From NCBI GenBank assembly GCA_947584595.1, contig CANPWP010000001.1, positions 1 through 64,000 of the forward strand: a DNA stretch of 64,000 nt. The letters run 5' to 3'. Source of the stretch: an uncultured Clostridia bacterium. GTDB lineage: Bacteria > Bacillota > Clostridia > Oscillospirales > Acutalibacteraceae. This document shows positions 20,462-48,376 of this stretch, one piece after another (the stretch's first letter is position 1; the number at the start of each line of letters is the position of its first letter). The translations under genes and the position numbers were made by a program. A model generated the notes under the pieces. The model searched no databases, had not been told where the DNA came from, and worked only from the letters and a program-made list of their open reading frames with translations.

Positions 20462-20488
20462 AAGGCACTATACAAAGTACAGTGCCTT
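20462..20488 (-). terminator. Terminator of the amylase gene
   Basis: AAGGCACT and AGTGCCTT pair, with further pairing TAC/GTA inside the loop. On the minus strand TTTTGTTTT follows. It lies 25 bases past the amylase stop. Confidence 0.8.
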
Positions 20489-20512: not shown

Positions 20513-22777
20513 TTACAGCAGATTTGCAATTAAAAGCTGAATTTTTGTTACGTCTCTTACATTAATATTATTATCGGAATCAAAATCAGCTGCATTCACC
20601 TGTTCGGAATCATTAACATCAATATACGGTTGATTATTGCTGTCAATAAAATTAGCTAAGAACATCTGTATATTCGTTGCATCCTTTATGGTTACTTCGC
20701 CGTCGTTATCAACATCGCCTTTTAGTCTTGGAGTAGGAGGGTCAGGCTGTTCCACTATATAATCTGACAATCCGCTGCCGTTAAATATTTTTTTCTCGCC
20801 TTTTTTAATAGTATATCCTGCATCCGTCGGATATTGAATTCCGTTGTTTCCGTTATTAAAAATAACATAGGCTGTATCATAATCCCAGCTTTCATTGAAA
20901 ACATATCCGTACATATCGCCGCCTAAGTCCGTCATTGCAATACCGGGCCATGTAGCGTTTTCAACTACTTTATTATCAGCATCCATATAATAAGAATAAA
21001 GATATAAACTATCCCAATTGTATTGGCTGTTATCAAAATAAACAACCGTTTCACCATCTATGGTAGGAGTAGAGAGCTTTGTAAAGGTAAATTTCTCAGT
21101 AACATTGTCACGTTCATTCTCACCGTAAAGAGTAATGGTTACTGAAGAGTTTTCTGCCATATTCTGTCCGATTGTGATTGTATCGCCTGTAACAAAATCA
21201 ACAGGAGCACCGTTATCAATCGTATATGTTGCCTTTGTTGTATTACGGGCTGTGAGAGTAAGTGTTAAAGTACCTCTAAAGTTTCCTCCGTTTTGAGAAA
21301 TTGAAACAGAAGGCTTTTTTACAAGATCACTGCTATATATAACAGAAATTGCGCCTGCTTTTACTGTACCCTGAAGCTTTCCGTCTGAAACGGTAAATTC
21401 TGCACCTGTTACCTGATCGTTATAAGTTCCGTTTTCAACATCTGATTGGCAATCTAAAGTAACATCTAAATCAGATGCATTAATAATTACCGCACCTGCA
21501 CTGCCACGCTCGATCATAAGTACCTTGTTATCTCCTGTGGGGTTAGAAAGTTTATTAGGCAAGCCTACCATAGCATTTCTAAACTGATTTACAGCAGCAA
21601 CCTCAGGATGGCAGAAGTTATCGTCGCCTTTAGCACCGATTTTGTTGTTGCCCCACTGGCTTTGTTTACTGCTGCCGTCAGGTCTGCTAAAGAACAGAGG
21701 TGTTGTATCCCCTCTTGCAGATATAACTGCCCAAGCATGTCTGATCTGCTGATTATCAAGCTGTGACCAGCTTCCATCATTACAGTAATTGTCGTGTGAT
21801 TCAACCCATGTTACCAATTTTTCGGTAGGTGCGCCATCTGACCTGTAATTTCCGAGATTGGAAGCACTAAAGTTGTTGCTTGATGCAGCACTTCTTATTG
21901 TACCACCATAACTTGAAGCTGTAACGCTCATAATTTTTGCGTAATCTCTTGTTCTGCTGCCTGAACCCTGCAAAATTTCACCATATTGAAATTCAGATCC
22001 GTTGTCTAAAACTACAGGCCAGAAATTGCTGGCAAAATCATATCCGTCAACAGGTTCGTCGTCCGGAAGTTCAATGTGTTTTGCAGCGTCATAACGGAAG
22101 CCGTCTGCACCGGCGGCTACACAGCTTTTAAGATAATTTAAAACCATCTGCTGAACATTTTCATTCTGAGTGTTTAAATCCTTAAGTCCTAAAAGATCAC
22201 CCTGTGTGCATTGATAGCGGTTGCCGTAATTATCAATGCCGAATCCATCATGGAAAGCTCCGCCGTCGATACTTGTAATTTCAGGGTCAATTGCACTTGT
22301 TGTACCGGTCATGTGGTTTACTACAGCATCAACAATAATTTTAATTCCGTATTTATCAGCTTCTGAGCACATAGCTTCAAATTCTTCTTTTGTTCCAAGC
22401 TGATAGTTCCCTATTACATAACGTGTGGGCTGATAATGATAATACCATTTACCATCGCCAAATAACTGCATTCCGCCGCCCTCACCTACAAGACATTCGT
22501 TAATGGGAGATGTTTGAACTGATGTAAAGCCTGCCTCTGCAATTTTGGGGAGATTTTCTTTAATGGTATTAAATGACCAACTCCACGCATGCAATATAGC
22601 ACCGTCTTTAATATTTTCCGTTAATCCGTAAGAATTATCGGCATCTGTACTCTGGGTATTATTAGTTTCATACGCTTTAGCATTAATTTCCGTATTAAAT
22701 AAGGAAACAGAAAATGCAGAAAGTATCATTAAAACAGATAATACAAGTGATAAAGGTTTTTTCAATGTTTTTTTCAT
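20513..22777 (-). CDS. Extracellular GH13 alpha-amylase with CBM26-like and dockerin modules
   Basis: The 754-residue enzyme should cut internal alpha-1,4 bonds of starch outside the cell. A signal peptide (about 1-34) precedes a GH13 catalytic domain with DAVVNH (about 150), nucleophile Asp 230 in GFRYDAAKH, acid/base Glu 267 in YGEIL and Asp 329 in WVESHD. After an all-beta segment comes a starch-binding module resembling CBM26 (YFDNSQYNWDSLYLY and NATWPGIAM, about 575-665). The last 70 residues form a type I dockerin: two calcium loops (DVDNDGEVTIKDATNIQ, DFDSDNNINVRDVTKIQ). A dockerin implies docking to a cohesin scaffold, as in the amylosome of Ruminococcus bromii. Confidence 0.92.
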   Translation of the reverse strand: MKKTLKKPLSLVLSVLMILSAFSVSLFNTEINAKAYETNNTQSTDADNSYGLTENIKDGAILHAWSWSFNTIKENLPKIAEAGFTSVQTSPINECLVGEGGGMQLFGDGKWYYHYQPTRYVIGNYQLGTKEEFEAMCSEADKYGIKIIVDAVVNHMTGTTSAIDPEITSIDGGAFHDGFGIDNYGNRYQCTQGDLLGLKDLNTQNENVQQMVLNYLKSCVAAGADGFRYDAAKHIELPDDEPVDGYDFASNFWPVVLDNGSEFQYGEILQGSGSRTRDYAKIMSVTASSYGGTIRSAASSNNFSASNLGNYRSDGAPTEKLVTWVESHDNYCNDGSWSQLDNQQIRHAWAVISARGDTTPLFFSRPDGSSKQSQWGNNKIGAKGDDNFCHPEVAAVNQFRNAMVGLPNKLSNPTGDNKVLMIERGSAGAVIINASDLDVTLDCQSDVENGTYNDQVTGAEFTVSDGKLQGTVKAGAISVIYSSDLVKKPSVSISQNGGNFRGTLTLTLTARNTTKATYTIDNGAPVDFVTGDTITIGQNMAENSSVTITLYGENERDNVTEKFTFTKLSTPTIDGETVVYFDNSQYNWDSLYLYSYYMDADNKVVENATWPGIAMTDLGGDMYGYVFNESWDYDTAYVIFNNGNNGIQYPTDAGYTIKKGEKKIFNGSGLSDYIVEQPDPPTPRLKGDVDNDGEVTIKDATNIQMFLANFIDSNNQPYIDVNDSEQVNAADFDSDNNINVRDVTKIQLLIANLL

Positions 22778-22803: not shown

Positions 22804-22832
22804 AGTATAAAATTAATTTAACTTAAAGTCAA
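22804..22832 (-). promoter_or_regulatory. Promoter of the amylase gene
   Basis: On the minus strand: TTGACT (22827-22832), 17 bases, TATACT (22804-22809), followed by AGGAGGAG before the start. No clear catabolite-repression site was found here. Confidence 0.7.
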
Positions 22833-23004: not shown

Positions 23005-23030
23005 CGGGGAAACTACTCTTAGTTTCCCCG
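23005..23030 (-). terminator. Terminator of the sugar ABC importer operon
   Basis: A perfect 11-bp stem (CGGGGAAACTA/TAGTTTCCCCG) with a 4-base loop is followed on the minus strand by CATTTTTG. It stands about 50 bases after the last permease gene. The rest of the 300-base gap is AT-rich and carries the amylase promoter. Confidence 0.85.
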
Positions 23031-23077: not shown

Positions 23078-23935
23078 TTATCCTTTTACAGCACCTGAAA
23101 CAATACCTTTAATAATATGCTTTTGACAAGCAAAGTAGAAAATTATAATCGGAATAATACTCAATATGATAAGCGCCATAATAGCACCAATATCGGTTTG
23201 ACCGTAGCTTCCGTTAAGGTATTGAATATGAATTGGAATTGTTCTGTAAAGTTTAATATCAAGAACAAGATACGGAAGGAGATAGTCGTTCCATATCCAC
23301 ATTGTTTCAAGAATACCTACTGAAATAAATGTAGGTTTCATTATAGGCAATACAACGCCAAAGAAAGTTCTAAGCGGACCTGCACCGTCAATACTTGCAG
23401 CCTCTTCAATTTCAATGGGGATTGATTTAACAAATCCCGTAAACATAAATATTGCAAGTCCGGCACCGAAGCCAAGATAAACAATAACAATACCCCAAGG
23501 AGTATTAAGTTTTAAGTTATCGGCAGTCTTTGAAAGTGTGTACATAACCATTTGGAAAGGTACGATCATAGAGAAAACGCAGAAATAATAAATTATTTTA
23601 CAAACAATACTGTTAACTCTTGAAATATACCAGGCACTCATTGCAGTACATATTAAAATTACAAAGACGGTTGCTATTGTAATAAATAAGCTTATTGCTA
23701 TTGATTTGTAAAAAGGATAGTTGCCGTAAAAGATACCGTTTATATAGTTATCGAAGCCCACGAAATTCTGAGCATTTGGCAGAGTAAACGGTTCAGCACT
23801 AATTCCTGTTTTAAGCTTAAATGAGTTCATTAATACAATAAAAATAGGAGAAACATAAAATACAGCAATAATACTGAAAACAACAGTTAAAATGGTTTTA
23901 GATATTTTACTTTTTTTCTTAACATTTGCATCCAT
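23078..23935 (-). CDS. Carbohydrate ABC transporter permease (MalG type)
   Basis: The 285-residue inner-membrane protein has six predicted helices and the EAA loop that contacts the ATPase (EEAASIDGAGPLRTFFGVVLPIM, cited in part). It belongs to the CUT1 family MalG/MsmG/AraQ group. It begins within the stop codon of the MalF-type gene, so the two permeases are made in a fixed ratio. Together with the binding protein at 24877 it forms an importer for an oligosaccharide, probably a maltodextrin given the neighbouring amylase. The substrate is inferred. Confidence 0.9.
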   Translation of the reverse strand: MDANVKKKSKISKTILTVVFSIIAVFYVSPIFIVLMNSFKLKTGISAEPFTLPNAQNFVGFDNYINGIFYGNYPFYKSIAISLFITIATVFVILICTAMSAWYISRVNSIVCKIIYYFCVFSMIVPFQMVMYTLSKTADNLKLNTPWGIVIVYLGFGAGLAIFMFTGFVKSIPIEIEEAASIDGAGPLRTFFGVVLPIMKPTFISVGILETMWIWNDYLLPYLVLDIKLYRTIPIHIQYLNGSYGQTDIGAIMALIILSIIPIIIFYFACQKHIIKGIVSGAVKG

Positions 23936-24804
23936 TATTGCTGCACCTCCCTCTTTCTTGTAAAGTAAAGCTGAATCAAACCAATAAATGCAACTATTAT
24001 AAAGAAAATAACAGCCTTAGCCTGACCGACGCCACGAGTATTTGCATTTTGATAAAATGTATCATAAATGTTTAGTGCAAGCATTTGTGTTTCATAAACC
24101 GTAGTACCTGAGGCTTGTACAACACCAGGCAGACCATTTGTTAAAGCTAAGTTTTGGTCAAACAATTTAAATGAGTTTGTAAGTGTTAAAAAAGTACATA
24201 TTGTAATTGATGGCGCCATCATAGGAATTGTAATTCTTCTCATAAGCTGAGATTTGTTTGCACCGTCAATTCTTGCAGCTTCATATAAATCTCCGGGAAT
24301 GCTTTGGAACCCCGAAATATAAATAATCATCATGTAACCGATTTGCTGCCAGCACATAAGGATTACCAATCCCCAAAAACCGAATGTTGCATCTGCTACG
24401 ATTGTTTTACCGTAATTCAAAAGAATACCGTTAAAAATCAACTGCCAGATATATCCCAAAACAATGCCGCCGATAAGATTCGGCATAAAAAAGGTCGTTC
24501 TGAATATATTTGAGCCCCTGATTCCCATTGTTAAAACATAACCAACAATGAAAGCTAAAACATTTATAAATACAACAGATACTATAACAAATGCAACCGT
24601 AAACCAAAATGCACTTGAAAATGTTTCATCCTGAAAGGCCTGAATATAGTTATCAAAACCTACAAATGTCGCATTACTTGTGGTTACAAATTTACAAAAG
24701 GAAAGGTAAATTCCCTGAAAAAATGGCCATACAAATGCCATAATAAAAGCTGCCAAGGTAGGCAAAACAAATATGACAAAATATTTTTTATTTTTTTGAA
24801 TCAA
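23935..24804 (-). CDS. Carbohydrate ABC transporter permease (MalF type)
   Basis: The 289-residue protein has six hydrophobic segments and the EAA loop YEAARIDGANKSQLMRRITIP. It is of the compact MalF/MsmF/UgpA kind of CUT1 importers, without the large periplasmic insert of enteric MalF. It partners with the MalG-type permease. No ATPase gene lies in the operon; the MsmX-like ATPase at 47258 is the likely energy source. Confidence 0.9.
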   Translation of the reverse strand: MIQKNKKYFVIFVLPTLAAFIMAFVWPFFQGIYLSFCKFVTTSNATFVGFDNYIQAFQDETFSSAFWFTVAFVIVSVVFINVLAFIVGYVLTMGIRGSNIFRTTFFMPNLIGGIVLGYIWQLIFNGILLNYGKTIVADATFGFWGLVILMCWQQIGYMMIIYISGFQSIPGDLYEAARIDGANKSQLMRRITIPMMAPSITICTFLTLTNSFKLFDQNLALTNGLPGVVQASGTTVYETQMLALNIYDTFYQNANTRGVGQAKAVIFFIIVAFIGLIQLYFTRKREVQQ

Positions 24805-24832
24805 AAGGATTACCTCCCTTAGTAGTTTGTTT

Positions 24833-24862
24833 AAAAAAGAGGAGCGCTGAACGCTCCTCTTT
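24833..24862 (-). terminator. Internal attenuator between binding-protein and permease genes
   Basis: An 11-bp GC-rich stem (AAAGAGGAGCG/CGCTCCTCTTT) with a 5-base loop ends in six T on the minus strand. It sits in the 72-base gap after the binding-protein gene. Partial termination here would give excess binding protein over permeases, common in such operons. Confidence 0.85.
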
Positions 24863-24876
24863 CATGAGCTTATTGA

Positions 24877-26238
24877 TTATTTATTAGCTGCTGCGTACTC
24901 TGTTTTCCAGCCTTGTACGAATGCTGTTACTACATCATCCCATGAGCCTGTGCCTGCTGCATACTGTGTAAGAGCTGCACCGACGCCGTCTTTCCATTTT
25001 TCTGACGGAATTGTAGAGAAGTTCCAAGAAACTGGGGTATTGCCTGCTGCTACATCCTCATTAGCAATAGCAACTAACGGGTTAGCGGCTTTTTTAGCAT
25101 TTTTGAAAGGAATTACAAAGCCCATATCATCTGCAAGAGCTTTTGTACCTTTATCACTTGTAACGCACCAATTAAGGAATTCAAGCGTAGCCTTAACGTC
25201 TTCTTCAGAAGCATTTTTGTTTACGCACCAATAGTTCTCTGAACCTGTGCAAAGGCCCTGTTTTTCTTCGCCGTCAACACCGATATAAATCGGGAGCATA
25301 CCGTATTCTTCGTCCTTTAAGCCTTCGCCTGATTTTTCATCATAAGCTGTGTCGCCGTATGCCCAAGTACCGTTCTGGTAGAATACAGCCTTACCTGTTT
25401 TAAACTCTGTTGTAGCATCAGTAGCTGTTTTACTTGCAAGAGCGGTCTTATCGCAAGTAGAATTGTTGATATAAAGGTCCCAAATCTGTTTGTAGTTATC
25501 TAAATATTTCCCTTCAATAGCGTCTGTTGATGTGATACCTTTATCTTTATACTCATAATAGATAGGCATATTAGCAAGATGAGTTTTAAATCTCCAGTCA
25601 TCTGAGCTATCCATACCTGCTGAAGTGAACGCACCGTCAACACCTAAAGCGTCTTTATTAGCCTGGATTTCTTCTGCAACTGTCTTTAATTTATCAAAGC
25701 TTTTGATTTCATCAACACTCTTAACTGTTGCAAAATCGGATTCAAAGTATTTATTAAGCAATGTTTTGTTGTAAATAATACCGTATGTCTCAACAACATA
25801 AGCAACACCATAAACAGCATTGTCATCTTTAAGAAGAAATTCATCATTTGTAACTTCATTGATAATATCTGCACCGGAAAGGTCATAACAATAATCTTTC
25901 CAGTTTGCAAGACCTACGGGTCCGTTTACCTGGAACAATGTAGGAGCGTCAGTCTTATCCATTTCAGATGTCAATGTCTGCTCGTATGTTCCCTCGGCAG
26001 CTGTTACAACTGTAACCTTAACACCTGTTTCATCAGTATAAGCTTTTGCAAGATTCTGCCACTGCTTATCCTGCTCCGGCTTAAATTGCAAATAATAAAC
26101 TTTTCCGCTTGCTGCTGTGCCGCCGTTGTTACCATCTGTTGCTGATGTTCCGCCATTATTTCCGCCGCAGCCTGCGAATACGGATGCCATCATACAGCCT
26201 GCTAAACCAACAGCCAATAATTTTGATAGTTTTTTCAC
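24877..26238 (-). CDS. Extracellular sugar-binding lipoprotein of the ABC importer
   Basis: The 453-residue protein has a lipoprotein signal peptide with two candidate lipobox cysteines (LAGC, Cys 15; FAGC, Cys 24), then a Gly/Asn-rich linker and a family 1 solute-binding fold. Typical segments are AKAYTDETGVKVTVV, the YGIIYNKTLL strand, and FKTGKAVFYQNGTWAYG. It should capture an oligosaccharide outside the membrane for the permeases encoded next. The start is GTG with AAAGGAG upstream. The substrate is not proven; maltodextrin is suggested by the amylase neighbour. Confidence 0.9.
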   Translation of the reverse strand: MKKLSKLLAVGLAGCMMASVFAGCGGNNGGTSATDGNNGGTAASGKVYYLQFKPEQDKQWQNLAKAYTDETGVKVTVVTAAEGTYEQTLTSEMDKTDAPTLFQVNGPVGLANWKDYCYDLSGADIINEVTNDEFLLKDDNAVYGVAYVVETYGIIYNKTLLNKYFESDFATVKSVDEIKSFDKLKTVAEEIQANKDALGVDGAFTSAGMDSSDDWRFKTHLANMPIYYEYKDKGITSTDAIEGKYLDNYKQIWDLYINNSTCDKTALASKTATDATTEFKTGKAVFYQNGTWAYGDTAYDEKSGEGLKDEEYGMLPIYIGVDGEEKQGLCTGSENYWCVNKNASEEDVKATLEFLNWCVTSDKGTKALADDMGFVIPFKNAKKAANPLVAIANEDVAAGNTPVSWNFSTIPSEKWKDGVGAALTQYAAGTGSWDDVVTAFVQGWKTEYAAANK

Positions 26239-47257: not shown

Positions 47258-48376
47258 TCAGTTTGTAATTGTCTGTTCTGTTTCTTTATCAAAAATATGA
47301 ATTCTGTTAAGATCAAGACCAACCTTGATATTGTCACCCGGTTTTGCGTTTGAAGCAGGGTCAACACGAGCCGTAAGCGGAACTCCTGAAATATTGAGAT
47401 ACAGATAAATTTCTGCACCCATAAGCTCTGTTACGTCAACATTAGCTGTAATTATACCGTTGCCGTCAGCAAGTTTATCAAGAAATTCGGGTTCATCGTG
47501 AACATGCTCAGGTCGAATGCCGAATACAACTTCTTTGCCGTTGTAAGCGTCAAGAACGTTGTCCTTGTTCTTTGACTGAGGCAGTTTAATTTCATACTGG
47601 TCAAATTTAAGATAGAAGTCGCTATCCTTTTTCACAAGTGTTGCGTCAATAAAGTTCATCTGAGGTGAACCGATGAATCCTGCAACGAATTCATTACAAG
47701 GCATATCATAAAGGTTTTGAGGAGTATCAACCTGCTGAATGAAACCGTCTTTCATTACAACAATTCTTGTACCCATTGTCATAGCTTCTGTCTGGTCATG
47801 AGTTACATAAATGAATGTTGTGCCGAGTCTCTGATAAATTCTTGAAATTTCTGTTCTCATCTGAGCACGGAGTTTTGCGTCAAGGTTTGAGAGAGGTTCG
47901 TCAAGTAAAAACACCTTAGGATCACGAACAATGGCACGGCCTAAAGCAACACGCTGTCTTTGACCGCCAGAAAGAGCCTTTGGCTTTCTGTCAAGATATT
48001 GCTCTATGCCGAGGATTCTTGCAGCTTCTTCTACTCTTCTTTTGATTTCTTCTTTTGGAGTTTTCCTCAGTTTTAAACCAAATGCCATATTGTCATATAC
48101 TGTCATATGAGGATAAAGAGCATAGTTCTGGAATACCATTGCGATATCTCTATCCTTAGGAGCAATATCGTTAGCAAGCTTATCTCCGATATAAAGCTCA
48201 CCCTTTGAAATATCCTCCAAACCGGCAATCATTCTGAGAGTTGTCGATTTACCGCATCCTGACGGTCCTACAAGAATAATAAATTCCTTATCTTGGATTT
48301 CCAAATTGAAATCTGTTACAGCCGTAACACCACCGTCATAGATTTTGTAAATATGTCTTAAAGATACATTTGCCAT
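47258..48376 (-). CDS. msmX: Sugar ABC transporter ATPase, MsmX/UgpC type
   Basis: The 372-residue ATPase has Walker A GPSGCGKST, signature LSGGQRQRVALGRAI, Walker B FLLDEPLSNLD and the switch His in YVTHDQTEAMTM, followed by the C-terminal OB-fold (MOP-like) regulatory domain of CUT1 ATPases (FGIRPEHVHD). It is encoded without permeases. In Firmicutes, MsmX-type ATPases energise several sugar importers, so it probably serves the ATPase-less importer at 23078-26238. The ribosome binding site is AGGAGG. Tandem repeats and a possible cre site lie upstream. Confidence 0.92.
   Translation of the reverse strand: MANVSLRHIYKIYDGGVTAVTDFNLEIQDKEFIILVGPSGCGKSTTLRMIAGLEDISKGELYIGDKLANDIAPKDRDIAMVFQNYALYPHMTVYDNMAFGLKLRKTPKEEIKRRVEEAARILGIEQYLDRKPKALSGGQRQRVALGRAIVRDPKVFLLDEPLSNLDAKLRAQMRTEISRIYQRLGTTFIYVTHDQTEAMTMGTRIVVMKDGFIQQVDTPQNLYDMPCNEFVAGFIGSPQMNFIDATLVKKDSDFYLKFDQYEIKLPQSKNKDNVLDAYNGKEVVFGIRPEHVHDEPEFLDKLADGNGIITANVDVTELMGAEIYLYLNISGVPLTARVDPASNAKPGDNIKVGLDLNRIHIFDKETEQTITN

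Follow-up and report, generated by a model that had tools for sequence, protein, structure and literature searches.

A dockerin-bearing alpha-amylase that is very probably a subunit of an amylosome of the Ruminococcus bromii type in a congeneric species

Amylosomes have so far been studied essentially in one species, Ruminococcus bromii, a keystone degrader of resistant starch. Its system includes Sca1-5 and Amy4, 9, 10, 12 and 16, and the species has five GH13 enzymes with a dockerin as well as 22 further dockerin proteins (PMC5814915, PMC9112005). An amylosome-like trait outside R. bromii isolates has already been noted in surveys of rumen MAGs (PMC9763041, PMC7260996). For cellulosomes, species-specific recognition is known (PMC5748583), and the published recognition positions of the dockerin are 10, 11, 17, 18 and 22 (PMC4582956).

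The alpha-amylase described here is encoded in the window, i.e., the whole stretch of 64,000 nucleotides that was analysed, which belongs to a genome of 1.67 Mb (99.75% complete, 0.6% contamination). Very probably, the amylase is an enzyme subunit of an amylosome of the R. bromii type, in a congener of R. bromii. The features of the gene and its surroundings are the following.

20462..20488, minus strand: terminator-like 12-bp hairpin directly 3′ of the amylase (consensus match only)
20513..22777, minus strand: secreted alpha-amylase of 754 aa, signal peptide-GH13-CBM26-dockerin (ORF and Pfam)
20513..20724, minus strand: C-terminal type I dockerin (Pfam, own-genome model, AlphaFold2, Foldseek)
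20552-20587, minus strand: calcium loop 2, DFDSDNNINVRD, intact
20681-20716, minus strand: calcium loop 1, DVDNDGEVTIKD, intact
20828..21043, minus strand: CBM26 starch-binding module, residues 579-650 (Pfam PF16738, E 7e-14)
21338..22627, minus strand: GH13 catalytic domain, residues 51-480 (Pfam, solved relatives and motif positions)
22804..22832, minus strand: promoter-like site TTGACT-17-TATACT, then AGGAGG ahead of the start codon (consensus match only)
23078..26238, minus strand: sugar ABC importer just upstream of the amylase, solute-binding protein and two permeases (sequence comparison)

The nearest full-length solved relatives of the enzyme are the alpha-amylase of B. subtilis (E 8e-124) and Amy16 of R. 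bromii (E 2e-107). The Pfam match to GH13 covers residues 71-251 (E 8e-17), and the motifs DGFRYDAAKH, QYGEILQG and WVESHDN have the nucleophile, the acid/base and the third carboxylate that are expected in GH13. The CBM26 module also matches the R. bromii Sas6 structure 7uwu. The protein is predicted to be exported to the outside of the cell.

A further terminator-like hairpin is found on the other side of the amylase, at 23005-23030. Together with the promoter-like site, these flanking hairpins suggest that the gene is transcribed on its own. An operon of amylase and importer is not favoured, given the hairpins on both sides, the promoter-like site and the lack of synteny, the importer neighbourhood not being seen in the orthologous loci examined. 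The glycolysis genes downstream of the amylase are, among these loci, common only to Ruminococcus sp. HAN024. The binding protein of the importer resembles maltose-binding protein 9xor. No ATPase gene adjoins the importer genes; a sugar-type ABC ATPase, MsmX/MalK-like by eye, is encoded at 47258-48376 on the minus strand and could power it.

The initial annotation of this DNA had placed two calcium-binding dockerin repeats at the C-terminus of the amylase, and these are well supported. Asp occupies positions 1, 3, 5 and 12 of both calcium loops. A model made from 30 other dockerins of the genome, with the window amylase excluded, gives the module 75.7 bits, against 12.9 bits for the best of 2000 shuffles. 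The score on Pfam Dockerin_1 (residues 686-732) is marginal, i.e., 22.8 bits against a cut-off of 22.9, because the linker joining the repeats exceeds that of the genome's other dockerins by about 9 residues. Most of the 14 aligned members of the amylase clade likewise have a long linker. AlphaFold2 predicts three helices (pLDDT 91.5), and the top 28 Foldseek matches of the predicted module are without exception dockerins or dockerin complexes of solved structure (probability 0.93-1.00, with E-values of only 0.05-1.5). The recognition residues that had been proposed, KDATNIQ and RDVTKIQ, cover loop positions 11-17 and are thus right for 11 and 17, but they leave out 10, 18 and 22. Over all five positions, repeat 1 reads I/K/Q/M/N and repeat 2 reads V/R/Q/L/N.

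It had also been expected that the genome encodes scaffoldins, and a search for cohesins and other dockerins bears this out. The genome encodes at least four cohesin domains in at least three proteins, identified with a profile made from three of its own cohesins (A1), as well as about 31 dockerin proteins. The best PDB matches of the A1 profile are from R. bromii, i.e., the Amy4 cohesin (E 7e-11), 7urp and Coh5 (7uvg). The cohesin proteins are located on three contigs.

C11:32024-34438: scaffoldin of 804 aa, X25 tandem, cohesin, cohesin, hydrophobic tail/anchor (A1 and PDB comparison)
C3:34613-35464 (= L041:6614-7462, plus strand): cohesin-dockerin adaptor of 283 aa (A1 profile)
C1:201036-202028: single-cohesin protein with a membrane segment (A1; profile comparison 96%, E 1e-9)

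In the C11 scaffoldin, the X25 part matches the X25 structure of R. bromii Sca5 (7rpy, E 2e-14). In Sca5, four tryptophans form a starch-binding platform (PMC9112005), and all four have counterparts in the scaffoldin, one of them offset by one column. Both this X25 part and the CBM26 modules are, by homology, predicted to bind starch. The cohesin of the adaptor is absent from the matches of the Pfam cohesin model (PF00963) and was recovered by A1, so surveys that rely on the Pfam model will count too few cohesins of this sequence type. Contamination as the source of the cohesins is unlikely, as the C1 protein is encoded on the window's own contig. The C11 and C1 proteins have C-terminal hydrophobic anchors, and five sortases are encoded in the genome. 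Sortase anchoring of the C11 scaffoldin is uncertain, since its tail has TSDSP where relatives have TGN/TGD. A further cohesin candidate, C6:61916-62788, is unproven, having no Pfam match in the protein scan, a probability of 0.1% against A1 and no PDB match. Scaffoldin genes are clustered in the R. bromii-like strain FMBCY1 (L205) and in a rabbit-derived genome (L211), and their counterparts here are dispersed over C11, C3 and C1.

Among the dockerin proteins, five are GH13 enzymes: the window amylase, three other amylases and one pullulanase (C1:193248, C2:163329, C3:131903 and C10:35524 for the latter four). The inventory of dockerin proteins closely parallels that of R. bromii. The pullulanase, C2:163329, is 48% identical to its FMBCY1 counterpart, and an Amy4-like enzyme of 704 aa (C1:193248-195362) is 58% identical to the Amy4-like enzyme of FMBCY1 and ends in GH13-dockerin, without CBM26 and without cohesin. 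Other dockerin proteins have CBM26, X25, LRR_5, CotH, C1 peptidase, CHAP, M23 or S11/GH25 domains. Cell-wall proteins (CHAP, M23, S11 plus GH25) and C1 peptidases with dockerins are found at L038, L047 and L053. C3:36285 is a partial dockerin, and a Pfam dockerin match at C2:54063 was dropped as a ClpP-like protein. At C14:41293-45381 (L056), three adjoining genes encode proteins whose N-terminal dockerins are near-identical but whose C-terminal parts are unrelated, a pattern that looks like the copying of a single dockerin onto several kinds of cargo. Adjoining GH13-CBM26 genes of which only one has a dockerin are found at C3:131903-134362 and L260.

The residues at the recognition positions were compared between four genomes: that of the window, HAN024, the rabbit-derived genome and FMBCY1. 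Counts in this comparison are not independent, as the dockerins within one genome are related by descent. With this restriction, position 11 of repeat 1 is K or R in 27 of the 31 dockerins of the window's genome and in 1 of 31 in FMBCY1 (p 6e-12, the counts being linked by common descent). Position 18 is mainly L and position 22 mainly N, H or K in the window's genome, and HAN024 has the same pattern. The rabbit-derived genome (L062) has K at position 18 of both repeats in 15 of 16 rows. Compared with FMBCY1, the dockerins have K11, L18 and N22 here and N11, a mixed position 18 and G22 there. Positions 18, 21, 22 and 11 separate the dockerins of the window's genome most strongly from the rabbit ones; against FMBCY1, 11 is the only published position among the top separators.

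The window amylase follows the pattern of its own genome (K11, L/M18, N22), while its rabbit orthologue differs with K18. At the five published positions, its dockerin has a log2 likelihood of -15.9 under its own genome and of -38.1 under the rabbit genome; for the dockerin of the orthologous rabbit amylase, the values are -14.0 under the rabbit genome and -23.5 under the window's genome. Of the dockerins that were left out, 24 of 26 and 9 of 10 were assigned to the correct genome. A fit to the pattern of the own genome is what is expected if the module binds the cohesins of its own lineage, implying a live, lineage-specific pairing of dockerins and cohesins. Here, this lineage-specific pattern is observed within a single genus of amylosome bearers. 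Possibly, the docking code has changed as a block within the genus: nearly all dockerins of a lineage would have one residue set in common at positions 11, 18 and 22, each orthologous amylase would conform to that of its own lineage, and congeneric amylosomes would not interact with each other, so that the scaffolds of neighbours could not take the enzymes. This extension is tentative, and on balance we rather doubt it.

Phosphoglycerate kinase is 98% identical to that of HAN024, 86% to that of FMBCY1 and 62% to that of Pseudoruminococcus massiliensis. FMBCY1 was found in the genus-wide search with identical match coordinates, which places it in one genus with the window organism. It had been supposed that a new amylosome would join a small group. 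This does not hold, as 126 of the 161 genomes from the genus have A1 cohesins (68 of 81 among the good ones) and rumen MAG surveys had earlier noted amylosome-like profiles. Across the family, 26 of 398 sampled genomes have such cohesins, five of the 26 being from the window's genus. No cohesin was detected by A1 in P. massiliensis, in agreement with the published finding that its glycoside hydrolases have neither dockerins nor cohesins (PMC8726730).

A tree of 79 GH13 domains places the window amylase in a clade of 14 GH13-CBM26-dockerin enzymes (SH-aLRT 99). A second supported clade, of 21, consists of GH13-dockerin enzymes without CBM26, and a clade of 31 from the window's and other genera is without dockerin. 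The tree is a quick, midpoint-rooted one without bootstraps, and therefore no number of dockerin gains is claimed. No member of the amylase clade was found in FMBCY1, where the closest protein is 44% identical and has no dockerin; two GH13 dockerin proteins of that strain, at 34% (Amy16-like) and 31% (the next), both fall outside the clade. Judged by these sequences, the window amylase is not an orthologue of those R. bromii amylosome enzymes (Amy4, 9, 10, 12, 16) that could be compared.

That a dockerin only makes sense together with cohesins, as stated in the initial annotation, is too strong: R. albus and Bacteroidetes MAGs are reported to have dockerins but no cohesins (PMC9763041, PMC7260996). 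The dockerin of the window amylase could in the same way be orphan or vestigial, the amylase then being a free secreted enzyme whose module only stabilises it or binds something else. Its unusual linker and its score just below the Pfam cut-off would suit this explanation. However, the genome does contain cohesins, the calcium ligands are intact, the dockerin is retained in all 14 members of the clade, and its recognition positions track the pattern of the genome, whereas a vestige would drift. Altogether, a dockerin without function in docking is very improbable.

Alternatively, the scaffold may serve mainly to display proteins on the cell surface in general (cell-wall hydrolases, peptidases and proteins of the LRR and CotH kinds), the amylase being one passenger instead of a part of a starch machine. 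Dockerin proteins with CHAP, M23, S11/GH25, C1 peptidase, CotH and LRR_5 domains indeed outnumber the five GH13 enzymes, and most R. bromii dockerin proteins (22 of 27) are without GH13 as well (PMC9112005). Against this, every recognised polysaccharidase with a dockerin is a GH13 enzyme, the C11 scaffoldin itself bears the starch-binding X25, and several non-catalytic dockerin proteins have CBM26 or X25. A scaffold that serves mainly for display is very unlikely.

If the amylase is an amylosome subunit, as we prefer, its secreted form would cut alpha-1,4-glucan with GH13 and hold starch with CBM26, as judged by homology. The C-terminal dockerin would fold around two calcium ions and plug into a cohesin of a scaffoldin of the same species, candidate partners being the C11 scaffoldin with its two cohesins and X25, the C3 adaptor and the membrane-anchored C1:201036 protein. 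These complexes would also take in the four other GH13 enzymes with dockerins and the starch-binding dockerin proteins, placing granule binding as well as cutting and debranching at the cell surface. Docking would be calcium-dependent, assembly would take place at the surface and starch would be hydrolysed within the complex. Uptake of the products may fall to ABC importers, the one encoded upstream being an example.

Amylosome parts are hence a genus-wide trait, and lineages differ in their enzyme sets and in their docking residues. Their breadth in the genus, an amylase recruit that is absent from an R. bromii-like strain and a lineage-wide docking code were unexpected, and they offer material for tests of the evolution of docking specificity and of which amylase recruits are important for resistant starch.

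Compared to known systems, the mucinolysome of Limousia (PMC12997984) is different, as no recognised mucin-glycan hydrolase with a dockerin was found among the dockerin proteins scanned, in which peptidases are present. With cellulosomes, e.g., those of Clostridium thermocellum and Ruminococcus flavefaciens, the genome shares the dockerin fold, the calcium loops, cohesin scaffoldins and lineage-specific recognition positions (PMC4582956, PMC5748583), but no recognised cellulase or hemicellulase with a dockerin was found in the same scan. The amylosome-like rumen MAGs (Ruminococcus_E and other Firmicutes) are similar in having GH13 (including GH13_28) and CBM26 with dockerins as well as cohesins; one of the surveys (PMC9763041) looked for cohesins with the Pfam model, among whose matches the cohesin of the 283-aa adaptor is missing, and the excerpts considered of both (PMC9763041, PMC7260996) contain no comparison of orthology or recognition positions. 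FMBCY1 is unlike the window organism in lacking a dockerin-bearing orthologue of the amylase. The architecture is not identical to that of R. bromii either, since the Amy4-like enzyme has no cohesin here whereas R. bromii Amy4 bears cohesin and dockerin. The R. bromii amylosome is nevertheless the closest match. Both have GH13 enzymes that bear a dockerin and CBM26, and in both the cohesins are of the Amy4/Coh5 sequence type; they also share a scaffoldin of the order X25-cohesin-cohesin-anchor that has the starch-binding tryptophans of Sca5, and about 30 dockerin proteins, most of them without GH13. Very probably, then, this is an amylosome of a kind already known, in a further species of a genus in which such cohesins are widespread.
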